Part shown: positions 2,107 to 16,933 of the stretch, piece after piece
How the letters are laid out: each line of letters opens with the position of its first letter
How positions within the stretch are numbered: the stretch's first letter is position 1
Origin: Bacteroidales bacterium Phil6
GTDB lineage: Bacteria > Bacteroidota > Bacteroidia > Bacteroidales > F082
Direction: 5' to 3'
Assembly: GCA_002633315.1 (NCBI GenBank)
Contig: NWBN01000032.1
Location: forward strand, 4,050-68,049
Length of the DNA stretch: 64,000 nt
Position numbers and translations under genes: made by a program
Notes under the pieces: model-generated
Told to the model about the DNA's origin: nothing
Database searches by the model: none
What the model saw: the letters and a program-made list of their open reading frames with translations, nothing else

Positions 2107-3657
2107 ATGAAAAAGAACCAATTGCTTTTTATGTGTGGCATGACTGTGGCATCTGCCTTGTCTGCTGCTACCGGCAACGACAAAGATAAACCGAATATAA
2201 TATTTATCCTGTGCGATGATTTGGGATATGGTGATTTGGCATGCTACGGACAGAAATACATACAAACACCGAACATAGATCGATTGGCGCGTGAAGGCAT
2301 GTTGTTTACACAGGCTTATGCCGGCAGTCCCGTCAGTGCTCCTTCTCGTGCTGCCTTAATGACAGGTCAGCATTCAGGACATACACATGTAAGAGGTAAT
2401 AAGGAATATTGGTATGACAGTCCTGTAATGTATTATGGTGATAATGAGGAATATTCTGTAGTGGGGCAGGAACCTTATGATACAGGACATATCATTCTTC
2501 CTGAAATCATGAAGATGAATGGCTATACAACAGGTATGTTCGGTAAATGGGCAGGAGGTTATGAAGGCTCAGGTTCTACACCTGATAAAAGGGGAATAGA
2601 CGAATTTTATGGCTATATATGTCAGTTTCAGGCTCATTTGTATTATCCCAACTTTTTAAATCGCTTCAGTACCGCAAAAGGTGATACTGCCACTATACGT
2701 ATAACTCTTGATGAAAATATACCGTATCCTATGTTTGGAGATGATTATAGAAAACGTACTCAGTATTCGGCAGATCTTATACATAGGGAGGCTTTGGCTT
2801 GGCTTGACAAACAAAGTGACAGTCAACCTTTTTATGGATTTTTTACATATACCTTGCCTCATGCTGAGTTGGTACAACCTAACGATTCTATTTTGAAATA
2901 TTATAAAAACAAGTTTTTTACTGATAAAACATGGGGAGGAAGCGAAGGTTCCAGATATAATGAAGCTGTACATACACATGCAGAGTTCGCCGGAATGATT
3001 ACGCGTTTGGATGCTTACGTGGGTGAGATAATGGATAAACTGAAAGAAAAAGGCTTGGATGAAAATACCATAGTTGTTTTCAGTAGTGACAACGGCCCTC
3101 ATGAAGAAGGCGGTGCAGACCCCGAGTTCTTTGGAAGAGATGGAAAATTGAGGGGATTGAAACGTCAGTGCTACGAGGGCGGCATCAGAATACCTTTTAT
3201 TGTCAGATGGCCTGAAAAAATAGAAGCCGGCAGTGTAAACGACCACCAGTTGGCATTTTATGACTTGATGCCTACTTTCTGTGAAATAATTGGCGACAGG
3301 AGATTCCCTAAAAGATATCTTAACAGAAAAATAAATGACGACTGTTTCGATGGCATTTCCTTTTTGCCTACTTTGTTGGGTGATGACGAGAATCAAAAAA
3401 AACATGATTTCTTGTATTGGGAATTTCATGAAACCGACCAGATAGCTGTTCGTATGGATGACTGGAAGTTGATAATAAAGACAGGTGTTCCACATCTTTA
3501 TGATTTGAAAACTGATCTTCATGAAGATCATGATGTCTCGGAACAATATCCTGATATTGTAAACGAAATGATAAAAATAATCTTCAGAGAACACCGTCCG
3601 AGTGATTTGTTTGAAGTTACTTTGCCTGATGCCGATGTTGGGAAAAATGTTAAGTGA
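2107..3657 (+). CDS. Secreted S-type arylsulfatase (alkaline phosphatase superfamily)
   Basis: Hydrolyses sulfate esters, probably on host or dietary glycans, after export (signal peptide, residues 1 to about 21). The maturation motif is S77-A-P-S-R81, the serine variant of C/S-x-P-S-R, with GQHSGHTHVRGN just after it. Metal ligands are expected at D37-D38 (ILCDDLGYGD) and in the later SSDNGPHEEGG segment. The length of 516 residues is normal. A serine-type sulfatase needs an anaerobic maturase, which is the gene upstream. The substrate cannot be told from sequence alone. Downstream to 4075 there is no other gene. Confidence 0.93.
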   Translation: MKKNQLLFMCGMTVASALSAATGNDKDKPNIIFILCDDLGYGDLACYGQKYIQTPNIDRLAREGMLFTQAYAGSPVSAPSRAALMTGQHSGHTHVRGNKEYWYDSPVMYYGDNEEYSVVGQEPYDTGHIILPEIMKMNGYTTGMFGKWAGGYEGSGSTPDKRGIDEFYGYICQFQAHLYYPNFLNRFSTAKGDTATIRITLDENIPYPMFGDDYRKRTQYSADLIHREALAWLDKQSDSQPFYGFFTYTLPHAELVQPNDSILKYYKNKFFTDKTWGGSEGSRYNEAVHTHAEFAGMITRLDAYVGEIMDKLKEKGLDENTIVVFSSDNGPHEEGGADPEFFGRDGKLRGLKRQCYEGGIRIPFIVRWPEKIEAGSVNDHQLAFYDLMPTFCEIIGDRRFPKRYLNRKINDDCFDGISFLPTLLGDDENQKKHDFLYWEFHETDQIAVRMDDWKLIIKTGVPHLYDLKTDLHEDHDVSEQYPDIVNEMIKIIFREHRPSDLFEVTLPDADVGKNVK

Positions 3658-5300: not shown

Positions 5301-7262
5301 ATGTCATATATCTCGTTTAGCAAGCAACAGTTGGTAAATCTCGAGTTTACGATGAGTAAAGAGATTTTGCGTTCCAACAGGTCGGGTGCGTTTTACAACA
5401 CTACCATCATAGGTTGCAACACAAGGAAATATCATGGACTGCTTGTGGTGCCGCAGCCTCAACTCGATAATAACAATCATGTGTTGCTGTCGAGTATTGA
5501 TGAGACTGTTATTGACAATAAGGAAGAGTTTAATCTCGGTGTACATCAATATGTAGATGGAACAGTGTCTCCGCGAGGTCACAAATATCTTCGCAATTTT
5601 ACTACTGAACCTATACCTCGTCTTACTTATCGTATTGGAACTTCGGTCCTTCATAAGGAGTATATCTTTGCCGAGAAGGAGGCACGTATTTTGATACGTT
5701 ATACTCTTGAGGAAGCTGCACTGCCTGTGACATTGCGTCTTCAGCCATTTCTTGCTTTCCGTAACGTGCACATGCTGACACACGAGAATTATCTTGCCAA
5801 CCGCAAATATATGACTGTTAAAAATGGTGTCACATGGAAGATGTATGACAATTATGACAGTCTTTACCTGCAGTTTTCCAAGGCTGTTGAATATACTCAT
5901 GTGCCTCACTGGTATTATAATGTGTTTTATATTCGAGAGTTTGAACGTGGCTATGATGCAGTGGAAGACCTCTATGTGCCAGGTTTTTTTGAATTTACTA
6001 TGAAAAAGGGAGAGTCTGTCGTGGTTTCTGCCGGCATCTGTGAGAGGAATCCTGCTTCATTCAAAAAACAATTTGAGACACAAATAAACAACAGAATACC
6101 ACGTGACAGTTTTAAACATTGCCTTCAAAATTCAGCACAACAGTTTATTATCAGAGATGATAACGGTACACGTATGTTCGCCGGTTTTCCATGGTTCGGC
6201 AGTTGCAGCCGCGACACTTTCCTGTCATTGCCGGGACTGACACTTGCCAGTGGTGACGAAAAGACTTTTAAACAATTGTTGTCATATCTCATCGACAGGA
6301 TGAAAGGTCCTTTCTTTCCGCATAAATATTATCAGAATGACTTGTATTATACTGCCTTGGACTCTCCTCTGTGGTTTATTTACAATATCCAGAAATATGA
6401 GAGCATGCTGAAAAAAAACAAGAGAACTTTGTGGAAGGATTATGGCAATGTGATAACAAAAATATTGAATAGTTTCATCGAAGGCACAGATTTCAATGTC
6501 AAGGTCTGTGAGAATGGGTTGCTGTATGGAGGTAATGAACGTCTCGCCCTGACATGGATGAATGTGTTTTGTGACGGGAAACCCATTACACCGCGTACGG
6601 GATTCGCTATTGAAATAAATGCATTGTGGTATAATGCATTGCGTTATGCAGTGTCGTTACTTCAAACAGTGGACCCAAATAATGAGGATATACAACGCTG
6701 GAGTGATGTTGCTGACAAGGTGCTGGCATCGTTTACTCCATGCTTTTATGATTCGGTTAACGATACTTTCTTTGACTATGTCAACGAAAATGAACGTAAT
6801 GCAATGGTGAGACCCAATATGTTGATAGCTATATCGTTGCCTTATTGCCCTTTTAAAAATGAACTGAAGAAAAAGGTATTCGACATAGCGAGGTCAGAGT
6901 TGCTTACAATAAGAGGGTTACGTTCTTTGTCGCCTCGTTCACCGGAATATAAGGGCGTCACTATTGGAAATCATAGAGAAAGAGAGATTGCATATCACCA
7001 GGGTACTGTCTTTCCTTGGCTTGTGATGCCATACGCCGATGCGTCCGTCATCTTGTACGGCAAAACGGCTCTTCCGTATATTGAAGATTTGTATCATGGC
7101 TTTGAAGACGCTATCAAAGACTGTGGTATAGGCAGTATATCAGAGATTTATGACGGTAATCCACCACACGATGCACGTGGCTGCATCTCTCAGTCCACGA
7201 GTGTGGCGGCTCTGCTGTATCTTGATTATTTAATAGACCAGATGAGAAAGGATGAAATATGA
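5301..7262 (+). CDS. Glycogen debranching enzyme (amylo-alpha-1,6-glucosidase type)
   Basis: A 653-residue cytoplasmic enzyme expected to remove alpha-1,6 branches from glycogen. The N-terminal part (about 1-260) begins with a segment typical of archaeal/bacterial-type debranching enzymes (SNRSGAFYNTTIIGCNTRKY, HGLLVVPQ). The C-terminal part is an (alpha/alpha)6-barrel, with AGFPWFGSCSRDTFLSLPGL near residue 300, GGNERLALTWMN near 420 and a late YHQGTVFPWL segment. It is the first gene of the alpha-glucan operon and overlaps the next gene by four bases (ATGA), which suggests translational coupling. Confidence 0.92.
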   Translation: MSYISFSKQQLVNLEFTMSKEILRSNRSGAFYNTTIIGCNTRKYHGLLVVPQPQLDNNNHVLLSSIDETVIDNKEEFNLGVHQYVDGTVSPRGHKYLRNFTTEPIPRLTYRIGTSVLHKEYIFAEKEARILIRYTLEEAALPVTLRLQPFLAFRNVHMLTHENYLANRKYMTVKNGVTWKMYDNYDSLYLQFSKAVEYTHVPHWYYNVFYIREFERGYDAVEDLYVPGFFEFTMKKGESVVVSAGICERNPASFKKQFETQINNRIPRDSFKHCLQNSAQQFIIRDDNGTRMFAGFPWFGSCSRDTFLSLPGLTLASGDEKTFKQLLSYLIDRMKGPFFPHKYYQNDLYYTALDSPLWFIYNIQKYESMLKKNKRTLWKDYGNVITKILNSFIEGTDFNVKVCENGLLYGGNERLALTWMNVFCDGKPITPRTGFAIEINALWYNALRYAVSLLQTVDPNNEDIQRWSDVADKVLASFTPCFYDSVNDTFFDYVNENERNAMVRPNMLIAISLPYCPFKNELKKKVFDIARSELLTIRGLRSLSPRSPEYKGVTIGNHREREIAYHQGTVFPWLVMPYADASVILYGKTALPYIEDLYHGFEDAIKDCGIGSISEIYDGNPPHDARGCISQSTSVAALLYLDYLIDQMRKDEI

Positions 7263-8542
7263 AAGTCTTGATGTTTGGTTGGGAATTTCCTCCTCATATA
7301 ACAGGCGGACTGGGAACAGCTTGTTACGGCATGACTAAAGGTCTTGCCAAGAATGGGGTGGAAGTGCTATTCGTTGTGCCTAAGGCTTTTGGCGACGAAG
7401 ACCAGTCGTCGGTACGTCTGCTTAATGCCAGCGATGTTACTGTTAACCTTGATAATGAGACTGATAGACGTTATTGGGATAGAGTCCATTATATGGAGGT
7501 CGGATCCAATATAATACCTTATGTTGGACCGGAGGAATATGCTTCGATGGTGACGGATTATCGTGCAACAGATCATTTTAAAAGTTCTGTATTCGCCCCA
7601 CGTTATGAGTTCTCCGGAAAATATGGTGCCAACCTGATGGAAGAGGTGGCGCGTTATGCTTTGATAGGCTCGTCTCTTGCTACGAAATATGATTTCGATA
7701 TCATTCATGCTCACGACTGGCTGACATATTCAGCTGGCATAGCAGCAAAGGAGACTACCGGCAAACCTCTTGTGGTACACATGCACGCCACCGAGTTCGA
7801 CAGATCCGGCGAGAATATCAATACTGATGTCTATGCTATAGAACGTCGCGGTATGGAGATGGCAGACCTCGTAATCACAGTGAGCAATCTGACACGTAAT
7901 ATTGTGATAGAGAAATACGGCATCAATCCGGATAAGGTCATTACTGTGCATAATGCCGTGGAACCTAATTCCAAAAGCCTTTCCGAATACGATAAAAGCG
8001 GCCTCAATGCCAAGATAGTGACATTTCTCGGGCGTATCACTTATCAGAAAGGACCGGAATATTTCGTGGAAGCTGCATATAAAATAATACAACAGACTTC
8101 TGATGTGCATTTCGTAATGGCAGGTACCGGCGATTTGCTTAAAAAAATGATACGCCGTGTCTCTCAGTTGAAAATAGGCTCGCGTTTCCATTTTACCGGC
8201 TTCTTGAAAGGTCAGGATGTTGACAGGATGTTCGCCATGACGGATGTCTTTGTCATGCCTTCCATATCTGAACCTTTTGGCATAGTGCCATTGGAAGCCA
8301 TGCGTCTTAACGTGCCGGTCGTCATCTCTAAACAATCCGGCGTGTCTGAAGTACTTAAACATGCTCTTAAAGTGGACTTCTGGGATATCAACGGCCTGGC
8401 TGATTGCATATATGGATTGTGTAACTATAAGGCAATAAGTGAATTGTTTAAAAAAGAAGGTAAAGATGAGGTTGATACCCTGAGATGGGAAGCTGCATCG
8501 AAAAAAATTATCGAAGTTTATAATTTAGCATTGTCAAAATAA
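7259..8542 (+). CDS. GT4-family glycosyltransferase, glycogen synthase-like
   Basis: A 427-residue cytoplasmic GT-B fold enzyme. The N-terminus FGWEFPPHITGGLGTACYG has the Gly-rich acceptor loop of bacterial starch/glycogen synthases and relatives. The C-terminal half has the ExxxxxxxE donor motif in SEPFGIVPLEAM. It starts inside the stop of the debranching gene and is 12 bases from the GH57 gene. It probably builds or primes alpha-1,4-glucan from an activated glucose. Its exact donor (ADP-, UDP- or GDP-glucose) is not readable from the sequence. It is the first of two different synthase-type enzymes in this operon. Confidence 0.88.
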   Translation: MKVLMFGWEFPPHITGGLGTACYGMTKGLAKNGVEVLFVVPKAFGDEDQSSVRLLNASDVTVNLDNETDRRYWDRVHYMEVGSNIIPYVGPEEYASMVTDYRATDHFKSSVFAPRYEFSGKYGANLMEEVARYALIGSSLATKYDFDIIHAHDWLTYSAGIAAKETTGKPLVVHMHATEFDRSGENINTDVYAIERRGMEMADLVITVSNLTRNIVIEKYGINPDKVITVHNAVEPNSKSLSEYDKSGLNAKIVTFLGRITYQKGPEYFVEAAYKIIQQTSDVHFVMAGTGDLLKKMIRRVSQLKIGSRFHFTGFLKGQDVDRMFAMTDVFVMPSISEPFGIVPLEAMRLNVPVVISKQSGVSEVLKHALKVDFWDINGLADCIYGLCNYKAISELFKKEGKDEVDTLRWEAASKKIIEVYNLALSK

Positions 8543-8554
8543 ATACTATACGTC

Positions 8555-9730
8555 ATGAATAAGTCTATTTGTTTGTGTTTTCAAGTGCATCAGCCTTACA
8601 GGCTGCGTACATATCGTTTCTTTGATATTGGAAAGAGACATTTTTATTATGATGAATATAATAATAGAACAGTCATTCAAAGAGTGTCAGAACGTTGTTA
8701 TCTGCCTATGAATGAACTTGTTATGGATATGATAGCCCGTTATGGCGATAAAGTGAAGTTCGCTTTTTCATTCTCCGGTTCTGTAGTAGAACAACTTGAT
8801 TTGTATGCTCCATCTACTCTCGACAGTTTCAAAAATATCTTGAAAAGTGGTAATGTAGAACTTCTTGCGGAGACATACGGTCATTCTCTTGCGTCTCTCG
8901 CGAATAAAGACGCTTTCAAAAAAGAAGTGCTTGCCCATAAACGCCTTATGCGTGATGTGTTCGGTATGACTCCCAAGACATTCCATAATACCGAACTTAT
9001 ATATTCCAATGACATAGGAGCCGATGTGGCAGATATGGGCTTTGACCTGATATTTACAGAAGGTGCTAAACACGTACTTGGATGGAGAAGCCCTAACTAT
9101 ATGTATTTCAATGCTAAAAATCCTAAACTGAAAGTCCTTCTGCGTAATGACAGACTTAGCGACGATATAGCTCTTAATTTTACTTCCTCTCCTATAACAG
9201 CTCAGGACTATGCATTGAAAATAAAAGCTTTCCCTGAAACAGAAGAGATAGTAAATATATTTGTCAACTATGAGACTTTCGGTGAATGTTATGCTGCTGA
9301 AACAGGTATCTTCGACTTTATGAGATATCTGCCGCAAGCTGTTTTTGACAACACGGACTGTAATTTTATTATGCCTCATCAGGCGGTCAAACTGATGCAG
9401 CCCATGGGGGTATTCGACGCTCCTATACCGCTTTCGTGCTGCGATGAGGAACGTGACTTGTCTCCCTGGATCGGCAACAGTATGCAGGATGATGCGTTCA
9501 ATACTTTGTACGATTGCTATAATATGGTGAAACGTATTAAAAATGAAGAAATTATAAGAGATTGGCACGCTTTGCAGGACGCTGGTGTTTTTCGGAATAT
9601 GTGTACTAAATTTGATGACAATACTCCTTATGATACTTATATCAATTTTATGAATATTTTGACAGATTTTAAGTTGAGACTTGAAAGCGAGATTCATAGC
9701 ATGAAAGCCAAAAAAATTGTCGCACAATGA
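8555..9730 (+). CDS. GH57 alpha-amylase-like protein with altered catalytic motif
   Basis: A 391-residue cytoplasmic member of glycoside hydrolase family 57. It begins with the HQPYRLR motif and has AETYGHSLASL and FHNTELIYSND, whose Glu (E147) is the expected nucleophile. In relatives the acid/base Asp lies in a DYETFGEHQ motif. Here the codon at 9266-9268 is AAC, giving N238 in FVNYETFGECYAAETG, and the His-Gln after it is also changed. GH57 is known to include alpha-amylase-like homologues lacking one or both catalytic residues, so this one may be a non-hydrolytic glucan-binding or regulatory protein, or may have changed chemistry. Third gene of the glucan operon. Confidence 0.9.
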   Translation: MNKSICLCFQVHQPYRLRTYRFFDIGKRHFYYDEYNNRTVIQRVSERCYLPMNELVMDMIARYGDKVKFAFSFSGSVVEQLDLYAPSTLDSFKNILKSGNVELLAETYGHSLASLANKDAFKKEVLAHKRLMRDVFGMTPKTFHNTELIYSNDIGADVADMGFDLIFTEGAKHVLGWRSPNYMYFNAKNPKLKVLLRNDRLSDDIALNFTSSPITAQDYALKIKAFPETEEIVNIFVNYETFGECYAAETGIFDFMRYLPQAVFDNTDCNFIMPHQAVKLMQPMGVFDAPIPLSCCDEERDLSPWIGNSMQDDAFNTLYDCYNMVKRIKNEEIIRDWHALQDAGVFRNMCTKFDDNTPYDTYINFMNILTDFKLRLESEIHSMKAKKIVAQ

Positions 9731-9833: not shown

Positions 9834-12800
9834 ATGTATAAAACACCTAAATACCTTTTTGAAATTAGTTGGGAAGTCTGTAATATGGTGGGAGGAATAT
9901 ACACCGTGTTATCGACAAAAATGGACGAAATGAAGAAATTGTTCGGCGATAATTATGTTAGCATTGGTCCTGACCTGGTAAAAGAATCACATGAGACTCT
10001 TTATTTTGTTGAAGATAACAGTTTATTCCCAGAATGGCGTGAACGTGCTATTTCTCGGGGACTTAAAATACGCATCGGAAGATGGAAACTGCCAAGTAAA
10101 CCTTTAGCTATCTTGATAGATTTTACAACATTATATCAAAGTAAAAATGATATTCTCGGTCATCTGTGGGAACAGTATAAACTGGATTCCATACAAGGAC
10201 AATGGGACTATATAGAACCTGTGCTTTTCGGCTATGCTGCCGGTCAGGTAATAGAAAGTTTTGTCGATTGGAACATTCCTAATGAAGAGGATATAGTAGC
10301 ACAATTTCATGAATGGATGACGGGTGCCGGCGTCCTGTATCTTAAAGAACATGCTCCTGAGGTGGCTACGGTGTTTACTACTCATGCCACTTATCTCGGA
10401 CGTGCCATCTCAGGTAACGGTCTGCCTCTCTATAATGAATTGTCGTCATATAATCCGACATCAATGGCTAACCGTTTCAATATCGTAGCTCAACAGTCCA
10501 TGGAACAAAAAGCAGTGGAAAATGCCGATGTCTTTACTACTGTGAGTAACATCACCGCTATGGAATGCAAATATTTCCTTAACCGTGAGCCTGATGTGAT
10601 AACGGAAAACGGTATTAGTGATGATTTGGTTCTTGACGAGACAACACGTCTGCAAAAAAGACAATTGGCACGTGAGAAGGTGTTTCATATTGCCGATGTG
10701 ATTACGGGTGTTACAGTGTCTCGCGATAGTATGCTGTTGATAAACAGTGGCCGTTATGAGTTTAAAAATAAAGGTATAGATTTGTATATCAGAGCATTGA
10801 ATAAACTTAACAATGATACTGAACTTGCTCGTGACATACTCGCGGTGATAGCTGTCCCGTCTAATATTGCCGGTCCTTCCAAACAACTTACAAGACGTCT
10901 TAACGGCACGGAACCGATAGAAGGTCATACTGAACATCCTTTGACTCATCATGTCTTTGATATAGAAAATGATGCCATAGTCAATGCTTTGAGAGAAAAC
11001 GGCTTGAATAACAATCCTGAAGACAGAGTTAAAGTGATATTCATTCCTTCATATCTTAATGGCGATGATGGAGTGTTCAATATCAATTACAATGATTTTT
11101 TGTATGCTTTCGATTTGTCGGTTTTTCCATCATATTATGAACCATGGGGTTATACACCATTGGAGAGTATTGCCCACGGTCTTCCTACGGTCACGACAGA
11201 TTTGTCCGGTTTCGGACGTTTTATGAAAGACAAAGATGTCAACAGTGAAGCTGTTACTGTTATCCATAGAGAAGAAGGTAATGGAGATTATGTGGTTTCT
11301 GCCATTGCAAAAGTAGTGGAAAATCTTTCAAAACGTTCAGAAAAACAATGGGAAACTATAACTTCGGAAGCTTTACGCCTCGCTTCTATGCTTTATTGGA
11401 AAGACCTCATTGTTAATTATCTTCATGCATACGACATGGCTTTGAATAAGTTGAAAGGCAGGGAATATATGCGTCAAAGTCGTCTTTATTCCGAAGTGCT
11501 GCGTAACTTCGACTTCAAGAAACAGGATACTCCTAATTGGAAGAAGTTTATGGTAGAGATAAATTACTCGGAAGAGATGCAGAAACTCAATGAGATGGCT
11601 CATAATTTATGGTGGTCATGGAACATAGATGCCATAGATTTGTTCCGTTCTCTCGACCCTGAGGCGTGGCAGAAATATGAACAGAATCCGTTGGCTGTGA
11701 TGGAAAACTTTACCAAATATCAAATTGACAGCCTTGAACAGAATGCGGAGTTTGTATCCAGATTGAATGTTGTTTATCAACGTTTTAAAGATTATATGTC
11801 GGCAAAACCTGACAATGATGATGTTATTGCCTATTTCAGTATGGAATATGGCATTCAAAAAAGTCTGAAGATATATTCCGGAGGACTCGGAATCCTTGCA
11901 GGAGACTACCTGAAACAGGCTTCCGACTCTAATGTCAACATGGTTGGTATAGGACTGTTGTATCGTTACGGTTACTTCAATCAGAGCATGTCGGTCTCAG
12001 GCGAACAGCTGTCTGAATATGTGCCTCAGAAGTTTTCGCAGTTGCCATTGGATCCTGTTCGTGACGCTAATGGCGACTGGGTGACTGTGAGCATTGCTTT
12101 CCCCGGTCGTAGCGTTTATGCCAAAGCATGGCGCGTAAATGTGGGTAGAGTGGGGCTTTATCTCCTTGATACCGACATAGAAGAAAATTCACAGGATGAC
12201 AGAATAATAACAGGCCAACTTTATGGAGGAGACAATGAGATGCGTATAAAACAGGAGATGTTCCTCGGTATCGGAGGTATCCGTCTGCTCGAGAAGTTGG
12301 GTATAAAACCCACTCTGTTCCATTGTAATGAAGGACATGCAGCATTCTGTGGTCTCGAAAGACTGAATATCATGGTCGCCAAACACAATCTCGAATTCGA
12401 TGTCGCTAAGGAATTGGTACGCTCGTCAACATTGTTCACTACACATACCCCCGTGCCGGCAGGGCATGACGCCTTTGAGGAACATCTGATGAGAACTTAT
12501 ATGTCTTATTATCCCTCACATATCAACATTTCTTGGGACAAGTTCATGGGTCTTGGTCGTTTCAGACCAAATGATCCTAACGAGAAATTCTCCATGAGTG
12601 TATTGGCTACCAATCTTAGTGATGAAGTCAATGGCGTAAGTCGCATTCATGGCAGAGTGTCTCGAGAGATGTTCCAACAACTGTGGCCGGGTTATTATGC
12701 AGAAGAAAATCACATTGGATATGTTACTAATGGCGTGCATCTTCCTACTTGGGCTGATGCTAAATGGCAGCGTTTGTTTTCTAAAGTGATGGGAGAGGAT

Positions 12801-14063
12801 TATCTTGATAATCAATCTGATTTTACTGTTTGGGAGAAGATGCAGTATGTGCCGGCTTCAGAGATATGGGATATACGTAAAGAGTTGAAGCATAATCTTA
12901 TGGAGTTTATCAAGGTTAAACTTGCCGAAGATATGCGTAAACGTCAGGAAAGTCCGTCTCTCATTATTAAGACTATCGACAGTCTTGATGAAAATGCTCT
13001 CATTATAGGCTTCGCTCGTCGCTTTGCTACATATAAAAGAGCTCATCTTCTGTTTACCAATCTGGAACGTCTTGCAGAGATTGTCAACAATCCTGAACGT
13101 CCTGTTATTTTCGTGTTTGCCGGCAAGGCTCATCCTAATGACAAGGCAGGTCAAGACTTGATAAAGAATATAATAGAGGTGTCACGAAAGAAAGAGTTTA
13201 TTGGTAAGATATTGTTTATCAGTAACTATGACATAGAGATTGGCAAGATGCTCACAAGTGGTGTGGATATTTGGCTGAATACTCCTACACGTCCGTTGGA
13301 GGCATCGGGAACGAGTGGAGAAAAAGCTGTCATGAACGGTGTCTTGAACTTCTCTGTACTCGACGGCTGGTGGGCGGAGGGCTACCGTCCCGATGCAGGT
13401 TGGGCTATCAAGGAGGAACGCACCTATCAGGACCAGAGATATCAGGATGAGTTGGATGCCGAGACAATATATAACATGTTGGAAGATGAGATAACGCCAT
13501 TGTATTTTACACGTAATGCCGATGGTGTCCCTGAGACTTGGGTGCAGTATATAAAAAATAACTTTATGGAGATAGCTCCTTTCTACACCATGAAACGTAT
13601 GCTCGACGATTATTTCAGTCAGTATTATGACAAACTTATCAAAAGAGCGAAATTCATGAGAGCTGACCGTTACAGTAAAGCTTTTGAGTTGACGGCATGG
13701 AGGAAAAAGATAGAATCGCATTGGGATACCATAGAAGTGTCTTCCATAAAGGTTCCGGACCCAAATATTAGGGCTTTGAATCTCGGCGATGTCTTTATCG
13801 CTGAGATTACATTGAAGATCCCGGGATTGGACAAGAATGACATAGGTATAGAACTGATGTTCGCTGAGAAAGAAAACGATGTCATAACAAAGATATTGAG
13901 AGTCGAACAGATGACCATGGTGGATTATGGCGATGACTGGGTGCGCTTTTATATCAGTCTGCCGGTATTCAAGGCTGGCGTTTATAATTATACTTTCAGA
14001 ATTTATCCTACCAACAAGATGCTGGCTCACCGTCAGGACTTGCCTCTTGTCAAATGGATATGA
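9834..14063 (+). CDS. Glycogen synthase - alpha-glucan phosphorylase fusion
   Basis: A 1409-residue cytoplasmic protein with two enzyme modules in one frame. Residues 1 to about 545 are a GT3-type glycogen synthase, starting KYLFEISWEVCNMVGGIYT, with the donor-site motif YYEPWGYTPLESIAHGLP. Residues about 556-1290 are a GT35 phosphorylase of the archaeal/bacterial alpha-glucan type. This part has a DUF3417-like start (NLWWSWNIDAIDLF), the segment YSGGLGILAGDYLKQASDS and the pyridoxal-phosphate lysine K1164 in ASGTSGEKAVMNG. About 110 further residues form a beta-rich tail. One polypeptide therefore carries both chain extension and phosphorolysis. No frameshift or internal stop is visible. Last gene of the glucan operon, ended by a strong terminator. 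Confidence 0.93.
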   Translation: MYKTPKYLFEISWEVCNMVGGIYTVLSTKMDEMKKLFGDNYVSIGPDLVKESHETLYFVEDNSLFPEWRERAISRGLKIRIGRWKLPSKPLAILIDFTTLYQSKNDILGHLWEQYKLDSIQGQWDYIEPVLFGYAAGQVIESFVDWNIPNEEDIVAQFHEWMTGAGVLYLKEHAPEVATVFTTHATYLGRAISGNGLPLYNELSSYNPTSMANRFNIVAQQSMEQKAVENADVFTTVSNITAMECKYFLNREPDVITENGISDDLVLDETTRLQKRQLAREKVFHIADVITGVTVSRDSMLLINSGRYEFKNKGIDLYIRALNKLNNDTELARDILAVIAVPSNIAGPSKQLTRRLNGTEPIEGHTEHPLTHHVFDIENDAIVNALRENGLNNNPEDRVKVIFIPSYLNGDDGVFNINYNDFLYAFDLSVFPSYYEPWGYTPLESIAHGLPTVTTDLSGFGRFMKDKDVNSEAVTVIHREEGNGDYVVSAIAKVVENLSKRSEKQWETITSEALRLASMLYWKDLIVNYLHAYDMALNKLKGREYMRQSRLYSEVLRNFDFKKQDTPNWKKFMVEINYSEEMQKLNEMAHNLWWSWNIDAIDLFRSLDPEAWQKYEQNPLAVMENFTKYQIDSLEQNAEFVSRLNVVYQRFKDYMSAKPDNDDVIAYFSMEYGIQKSLKIYSGGLGILAGDYLKQASDSNVNMVGIGLLYRYGYFNQSMSVSGEQLSEYVPQKFSQLPLDPVRDANGDWVTVSIAFPGRSVYAKAWRVNVGRVGLYLLDTDIEENSQDDRIITGQLYGGDNEMRIKQEMFLGIGGIRLLEKLGIKPTLFHCNEGHAAFCGLERLNIMVAKHNLEFDVAKELVRSSTLFTTHTPVPAGHDAFEEHLMRTYMSYYPSHINISWDKFMGLGRFRPNDPNEKFSMSVLATNLSDEVNGVSRIHGRVSREMFQQLWPGYYAEENHIGYVTNGVHLPTWADAKWQRLFSKVMGEDYLDNQSDFTVWEKMQYVPASEIWDIRKELKHNLMEFIKVKLAEDMRKRQESPSLIIKTIDSLDENALIIGFARRFATYKRAHLLFTNLERLAEIVNNPERPVIFVFAGKAHPNDKAGQDLIKNIIEVSRKKEFIGKILFISNYDIEIGKMLTSGVDIWLNTPTRPLEASGTSGEKAVMNGVLNFSVLDGWWAEGYRPDAGWAIKEERTYQDQRYQDELDAETIYNMLEDEITPLYFTRNADGVPETWVQYIKNNFMEIAPFYTMKRMLDDYFSQYYDKLIKRAKFMRADRYSKAFELTAWRKKIESHWDTIEVSSIKVPDPNIRALNLGDVFIAEITLKIPGLDKNDIGIELMFAEKENDVITKILRVEQMTMVDYGDDWVRFYISLPVFKAGVYNYTFRIYPTNKMLAHRQDLPLVKWI

Positions 14064-15661: not shown

Positions 15662-16933
15662 ATGTTTATACGTAAGAAGAAATACCGATCAGGCAATGTA
15701 GGTGTCATAATCGTTGAAAAGGTCAACGGCAAGATGAAAGAGCTTACCACTATAGGTATAGCGCGTCATCAAGAAGAGATAGATTCTCTCATAATGAAAG
15801 GACGTAAATGGATAGATGAGGAACAGGAACGCCGCCATCCACGGCTGGATCTTTTCGGTGAGGAACGTAAGAAGTGTGAGGCAGAACTTCTGAGTGCCGA
15901 ACAGATGCTTTCGTGCATAACCAACATCTCCATCAATGGAGCTGACCTGATACTTGACCGCGTCTTTGACAACGTGGGATTCAACAGGATAGATAATGAG
16001 GTGTTCCGCCAACTTGTAAAAGCCCGCTTGTATTATCCTGTAAGCAAAGCTGCCACAGTGGAGTATCTGAAGAATCATTTTGACGAAGATGTCAGCCTGT
16101 CGAAGATCTATCGTTATTTGGACAAACTGAGCGATAATCAACATAAGATAGTTCAGGACATAAGCGTCCTTCACACAAAGAAGATCTTAGACGGTCATAT
16201 CGGTGTGCTGTTTTATGATGTCACTACACTATATTTTGAAGCGGACTATGAGGATGAGCTTCGCAAAACCGGTTTCTCCAAGGAAGGGCGTCATCAGAAC
16301 CCTCAGATTATATTGGGACTGTTGGTCAGCATTGGCGGCTATCCGCTTGCGTATTGCATCCATGAGGGCAACAAGTACGAGGGACACACGATGCTTCCTG
16401 TAGTGACGGAATTTGTCCGAAAATATGAGTTGGAAGATTTTATCGTGGTGGCTGACTCAGGGTTGATGAACAACGATAATATAGCCGACCTTGAAGCAAA
16501 CGGTTACAAGTATATCATCGGTGCTAAAATCAGGAACGAGAGCAGGAAGATACAGGAATGGATACTGGAGCAGCCTAAAACAGACTGCCAAATGGTTGAA
16601 TACGATAAAGGCAACGGACAGAGGTTGTTGGTCGGATATACAGAAGAGCGTGCCCGAAAGGATGCTTATAACCGTGAGAAAGGGATACGCCGTCTGGAGA
16701 AGGCATACCACAGAGGTACGCTTACCAAAGACAACATCAACAAGCGCGGATACAACAAGTTCCTGAAAATGGAAGGGGATGTAAAAGTGACCATCAATTA
16801 CGAGAAACTGGAGAAAGATGCGAAATGGGATGGTCTCAAAGGATACCTTACAAATACGAATATACCAGTAAATGACGTGTATGCAGCCTACCTAAACTTT
16901 CTTTTCCAGTTAAATTGTTTCTGCGTTCACTAA
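15662..16933 (+). pseudogene. IS1634-family transposase, C-terminally truncated
   Basis: 423 residues remain of a DDE transposase that is usually about 550-600 residues long. The first catalytic Asp lies in VLFYDVTTLYFEAD and the second in FIVVADSGLMNND. The region with the third (Glu) is missing: after NIPVNDVYAAY the frame runs into unrelated sequence and ends LFQLNCFCVH. The left end of the element is near 15562-15620, and its right end is gone. It is therefore inactive by itself. Confidence 0.88.

Follow-up and report, generated by a model that had tools for sequence, protein, structure and literature searches.

A GH57 protein with a largely lost catalytic site, retained in the glycogen operon of a Candidatus Limimorpha clade

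What does a GH57 protein do in a glycogen operon when the Asp of its catalytic pair reads Asn? The question is raised by a 391-residue protein encoded at positions 8555-9730 of a 64,000-nucleotide stretch of Bacteroidales bacterium Phil6, an uncultured gut bacterium (contig NWBN01000032.1; this whole stretch is hereafter the window, and the glycogen genes and codons placed below lie on its forward strand), identified from its ORF, Pfam match, predicted fold and alignment as a GH57 protein whose catalytic site is largely lost. The genome (2.59 Mb, 34 contigs, a single GH57 gene) is of the Candidatus Limimorpha type, in a genus group that takes in Candidatus Limimorpha caballi and L. equi (identical proteins).

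Fold and catalytic residues of the window protein

The assignment to GH57 made in the initial annotation is supported by a PF03065 match of 229.2 bits (cut-off 21.2) and by an AlphaFold2 model (pLDDT 93.9, pTM 0.91) with the incomplete TIM-barrel of GH57, whose top matches among solved structures are GH57 crystal structures: Aquifex amylopullulanase ranks first (Z 34.6), and branching enzymes (Z about 29-30) and a glucanotransferase (29.2) also match. A profile built from 56 cassette GH57 proteins matches the 4-alpha-glucanotransferase 1k1w (E 4e-5), with whose Glu E147 of the window protein aligns.

E147 (8993-8995), in the context FHNTELIYSN, aligns with the conserved catalytic Glu at strand 4, and the nucleophile is thus intact as first described. 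Likewise borne out is the reported exchange of the proton-donor Asp at strand 7, position 238 being Asn (AAC, 9266-9268) in the context NYETFGECY. The accompanying statement that the other motifs remain proved wrong, since, of the 115 positions at which 62 outgroup Bacteroidota proteins agree to at least 97%, the protein is changed at 19: Y8C, A45S, L95I, R144H, F207L, R208N, D238N, H245C, Q246Y, V289A, W295C, A296C, A304P, S343A, D344G, H345V, Y347R, Y348N and A361T. These include the first residue of CSR-3 (R144H, 8984-8986), the pair H245-Q246, now Cys-Tyr (9287-9292), W295, now Cys (9437-9439), and the Tyr-Tyr pair ending CSR-5, now Arg-Asn (Y347-Y348, 9593-9598), an alpha-amylase hallmark according to the accessible text of PMC6037648. 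D152 (9008-9010) is also Asn, and H12 of the HQP motif in CSR-1 (8588-8590) is kept. Alpha-amylase specificity is defined in the same text by a CSR-3 that begins with Arg or Glu together with the Tyr-Tyr pair, in place of which the window protein has H144, R347 and N348.

GH57 alpha-amylase homologues without a full catalytic pair are known, as the initial annotation stated: PMC6037648 (2018), in its accessible part, describes GH57 "like" proteins in which one catalytic residue or both are missing, 126 of them alpha-amylase-like, and defers their detailed analysis. Set against the definition given there, the window protein has E147 and lacks D238; it shares with that group the GH57 fold, the alpha-amylase-type regions and the missing catalytic residue or residues. 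The group is presented in that text without operon context or mechanism, whereas the loss described here maps to one clade, in which the neighbours of the Asp went first, and to a glycogen operon. We found no published account of a Bacteroidales cassette GH57 that has lost catalysis in a literature search that was thin on subscription journals; GH57 proteins without catalytic residues being already known, what looks new is that the active site is lost throughout a clade and that such loss recurs in a conserved glycogen operon. The founding paper on the alpha-amylase-like proteins is reportedly that of Janecek and Blesak in 2011.

An engineered counterpart exists in Aquifex aeolicus amylopullulanase D352N (PDB 8zyi, 9jlt, 9jlu), where, as in the window, Asp is replaced by Asn, D352 being equated with position 238 from entry titles and family logic rather than superposed coordinates. 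To judge from their titles, several of the Aquifex structures show D352N or E256 mutants with bound glucans; crystallisation of the D352N enzyme with glucans indicates that an Asp-to-Asn site can still bind. D352N is a single change in a site otherwise intact, in contrast to the widely altered site of the window protein.

Erosion of the active site in one Limimorpha clade

Among 99 genomes of the genus, 75 have a strong GH57 match, and the gene was taken from all 75; together with 62 distinct outgroup proteins this gave an alignment of 134 distinct full-length proteins. Four sequences that were too short or cut (L022, L065, L074 and L075) were left out of the alignment and trees, of which L075 reads as the eroded type and is included as such in the genome counts. 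The distinct genus proteins comprise 36 canonical and 35 eroded ones (the window's included), plus L076 (1-1173, genome G056), a GH57 fragment that has neither catalytic residue and comes from a short contig in a Limimorpha assembly. L076 is 77% identical to the protein of Prevotella sp. oral taxon 299, probably lies on a stray, Prevotella-like contig and was excluded from the counts.

All 98 canonical and outgroup rows have R144, D238, H245, Q246 and W295. In the eroded set, R144, H245, Q246 and W295 are gone and D152 is Asn in 35/35, Y347 and Y348 are gone in most, and E106 is Gly in nine of the 35. E147 and H12 are kept in all 35, E147 being present in 133 of the 134 distinct proteins (the exception is L076), and D238 is kept in 29, the other six having Asn. 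Counted over the 115 outgroup-conserved positions, an eroded protein has on average 21.0 changes and a canonical one 3.3 (maximum 6), and the five conserved regions are not significantly richer in changes than the remaining positions (7/30 versus 13/85, p 0.40). Other Limimorpha and Bacteroidota have in their GH133-GT4-GH57 cassette a canonical GH57 that is orthologous to the window gene by synteny and tree; it keeps RNTELIYSD, DYETFGEHQ, W295 and the Tyr-Tyr pair, all lost in the window's clade, and is about 400 residues or more in length, against about 374-391 in that clade.

In a tree built without the eroded-residue columns, the 35 eroded proteins form a single clade (SH-aLRT 100), sister to canonical Limimorpha (82), in which the window protein has no close relative and sits on a long branch (0.5). 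The carriers of Asn238 in the genus (the window, L064, L068/L069/L072 and L070) correspond, on a reading of the tree by eye, to three or four changes; an assembly error at 9266 is ruled out by this independent recurrence in other genomes. An alignment of orthologues, proposed in the initial annotation as a check on whether Asn is fixed in a clade, indicates that it is not, 29 of the 35 relatives keeping Asp despite the loss of the residues around it, and a single Asp-to-Asn step in an otherwise intact site is contradicted by that clade-wide loss. The restriction of Asn238 to six of 35 proteins marks it instead as a late, repeated step within a wider loss, in which Asp238 is usually the last residue to go. 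His245 is also lost in 16 of 17 Asp-lost rows, the independent pairs being too few for significance.

Rates were compared on a topology shared by three neighbour genes, over 54 loci (30 eroded, 10 canonical and 14 outgroup; four other loci without the full gene were excluded). Measured from the genus root, GH57 has a mean depth of 0.679 in the eroded clade and 0.196 in the canonical one, a 3.47-fold difference, as against ratios of 1.17 for GH133, 1.23 for GT4 and 1.27 for the synthase-phosphorylase; the GH57 stem of the eroded clade measures 0.277 versus 0.070 for the canonical stem, whereas in all three neighbour genes the eroded-clade stem is the shorter. Within the eroded clade, dN/dS is 0.023-0.144 (15 pairs chosen for closeness, which share sequences and are not independent), compared with 0.019-0.085 among canonical Limimorpha (nine pairs), and 130 of 391 positions are invariant across the 35 eroded proteins. 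The GH57 genes of the window's relatives are under strong purifying selection, the window gene itself lying on a long branch. Branch depths and dN/dS together point to a burst of fast evolution that was confined, among the operon genes compared, to GH57 and was followed by constraint.

Recurrent loss of Asp238 in other Bacteroidales

Asp238 is kept in all 62 proteins of the original outgroup set. A DNA pattern for N-Y-E-T-F-G, run over 393 Bacteroidales genomes, matched at 36 places, many of them by chance; 14 are GH57 genes, namely the window's and 13 in seven other families, of which 12 adjoin a GT4 gene and most retain most of the other motifs. The gene is present in 350 Bacteroidales genomes. 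The 30 sequences that match L076 best, a sample skewed towards Asp-lost forms (with L241 and L200 being one and the same place), all lack Asp238: Asn is found in 16, Thr in seven, Glu in six and Ser in one, and six also have Ser in place of E147. A tree of 93 rows requires at least nine changes between Asp and non-Asp at position 238, five of them forced by well-supported branches, and places 35 non-Asp rows in one clade (SH-aLRT 100) apart from Limimorpha. Recurrence of Asn238 in independent lineages suggests more than chance.

Named examples are the cassette GH57 of Parabacteroides distasonis (N238; annotated as an alpha-amylase or a GH57 protein) and the proteins of Bacteroides finegoldii (annotated as an alpha-amylase) and Prevotella sp. 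oral taxon 299, which have S147 and E238 and hence neither catalytic residue. All three share the loss of catalytic residues with the window protein, and those of B. finegoldii and P. distasonis adjoin, as it does, a debrancher and a glycosyltransferase; the losses of the three are separate from that of Limimorpha on the tree of relatives, and the three proteins carry a coiled-coil-like, Lys-rich C-terminal tail that Limimorpha lacks. Many proteins of the wider set (L181-L189, L199-L202 and L214-L246) have a coiled-coil-like stretch at the C-terminal end and a histone-like tail rich in Lys, Ala and Pro; outside Limimorpha the median tail is about 60-74 residues past the conserved end, compared with almost none in Limimorpha. 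One genome (G205) has two cassette GH57 genes (L199 and L216), each adjoining GT4, one with N238 and the other with S147 and E238, and in two related genomes of family f4 (L205 and L206) the GH57 has Glu238, in one case with Gln147, and adjoins GH133 and GT4.

Operon context and possible roles

The place of the gene in a glycogen operon, given in the initial annotation, is confirmed: a GH133-type glycogen debranching enzyme (GDE_N, GDE_C; 5301-7262) and a GT4 glycosyltransferase (7259-8542), whose stop lies 12 bases upstream of the GH57 start, precede it (both from ORF, profiles and synteny), and a 1409-residue fusion of GT3 glycogen synthase and alpha-glucan phosphorylase (9834-14063; from ORF and profiles) follows. 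A GT3 synthase is present in 73 genomes of the genus, all 73 of which have GH57; GH57 without a synthase match occurs in two (G003, 71% complete with GH57 at a contig end, and G010). The order GH133-GT4-GH57 is kept in most sufficiently long stretches, whether eroded, canonical or outgroup, with start distances from GT4 to GH57 mostly of about 1290-1340 bases and larger gaps in several Limimorpha. The fused synthase-phosphorylase is absent from the fetched stretch in many outgroup Bacteroidota loci, those of Parabacteroides and Bacteroides having only a separate glycogen/starch synthase gene in it, which makes GT4 the more constant neighbour of GH57. GT4 and GH57 modelled as one AlphaFold2 chain gave no confident complex (pTM 0.55, pLDDT 83.9), with a mostly unpaired alignment and no control pair. 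Some loci carry additional DNA: about 2.4 kb between GH57 and the synthase-phosphorylase in L061 and L089, and 1-3 kb between GT4 and GH57 in several other Limimorpha.

Purifying selection in relatives, presence in 73/73 synthase-bearing genomes and the constant operon place uphold the suggestion that the protein still has a role despite its broken site, for which the initial annotation named glucan binding, chain-length sensing and allosteric partnership with the fused enzyme as candidates. In the reading that we favour, with a probability of roughly 0.55 on the sequence evidence, the window GH57 is a retired enzyme that would now act as a non-catalytic, glucan-binding component of glycogen synthesis. 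The ancestor of the eroded clade lost His245, Gln246, Arg144, Trp295 and, for the most part, the CSR-5 Tyr pair; Asp238 then disappeared on several occasions, one of them in the window's lineage, while the fold, E147 and the operon place were retained and the relatives remained under purifying selection. Deprived of the acid/base Asp and its surroundings, the protein would be unable to perform GH57 double displacement fast enough to be useful. Most likely it binds alpha-glucan chains but leaves them uncut, and it may help GT4 or the synthases by holding or presenting chains or by shaping the glycogen particle. Such a role would be analogous to that proposed for plant isoamylase ISA2, a conserved non-catalytic homologue of a glucan hydrolase in glucan metabolism (PMC12510319, accessible text). 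ISA2 differs in coming from an unrelated family and in having a catalytic partner, ISA1, whereas the window genome has no second GH57, which also rules out redundancy with another GH57. A further background is offered by the accessible text of the 2024 review PMC11046441, which reports a GT4-GH133-GH57 cluster in Picrophilus and a strongly reduced, very low glycogen content in GH57-null Sulfolobus, and asks whether such GH57 "amylases" are the missing branching enzymes. As a stand-in for a missing GH13 branching enzyme the eroded GH57 is unsupported, a TIGR01515-type match being found in 34/36 eroded-type and 38/38 canonical-type genomes, with all such matches in the genus below the model cut-off. 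Plant ISA2 itself belongs to GH13.

A purely structural scaffold would not need E147, invariant in 35/35, or D238, kept in 29/35, and both count against the favoured reading, as do the lack of a confident GT4-GH57 complex, the absence of significant enrichment of changes in the conserved regions, and the fact that purifying selection is seen in relatives of a window protein that itself sits on a long branch. These two residues, together with the invariant H12 and the phosphorylase domain encoded by the adjoining gene, are what speaks for an enzyme of changed chemistry, in which E147 would form a glucosyl-enzyme and the acid/base would be replaced either by another residue or by a substrate that brings its own good leaving group, such as glucose 1-phosphate made by the phosphorylase next door; we regard it as distinctly unlikely, since His245, Gln246, Arg144 and Trp295 are absent from all 35 proteins, no candidate replacement acid was found, and the loss of the nucleophile in Bacteroides finegoldii and Prevotella sp. 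oral taxon 299 argues that it is not needed family-wide. An ordinary amylase or branching-type enzyme, with Asn238 tolerated or mis-assembled, would fit the intact E147 and fold, and is very unlikely given the recurrence of Asn in independent genomes, which speaks against an assembly slip, and the many further active-site residues gone.

Unlikely, too, is a partner that regulates the fused synthase-phosphorylase, perhaps allosterically as the initial annotation suggested, and for which glucan binding would be secondary: the fusion gene directly follows GH57, and no genome of the genus that has the synthase lacks GH57, but many Bacteroidota GH133-GT4-GH57 trios have no synthase-phosphorylase in the fetched stretch and the constant neighbour is GT4. 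As for a decaying pseudogene retained by chance, the GH57-specific acceleration in the clade is what one would expect of it, yet the window frame is open, GH57 is never missing where a genus genome has the synthase, and dN/dS far below 1 in relatives together with 130 of 391 invariant positions leads us to reject such decay; this explanation is close to refuted.

Returning to the non-catalytic, glucan-binding component that we favour, it is possible, and we put it forward tentatively, that what makes the cassette GH57 indispensable is a non-catalytic job, also in proteins whose catalytic pair is intact; this would account for repeated loss of catalysis with the gene kept. In Bacteroidales cassette proteins Asp238 is seen replaced by Asn, Thr, Ser or Glu, and E147 by Ser. 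If the idea were true, GH57 would serve bacterial glycogen synthesis as a subunit that organises glucan, and would be misannotated as an amylase in common gut bacteria; in gut Bacteroidales such genes are indeed annotated as amylases (as in the Bacteroides finegoldii record). Lineages that have lost catalysis and kept the gene would be natural separation-of-function mutants, making a catalytic versus another role in glycogen metabolism testable.

Elsewhere in the window, adjoining ORFs at 464-1714 and 2107-3657 resemble, by eye, a radical-SAM maturase and a sulfatase, and an ORF at 15662-16933, directly downstream of a second GT4 gene, resembles a transposase.
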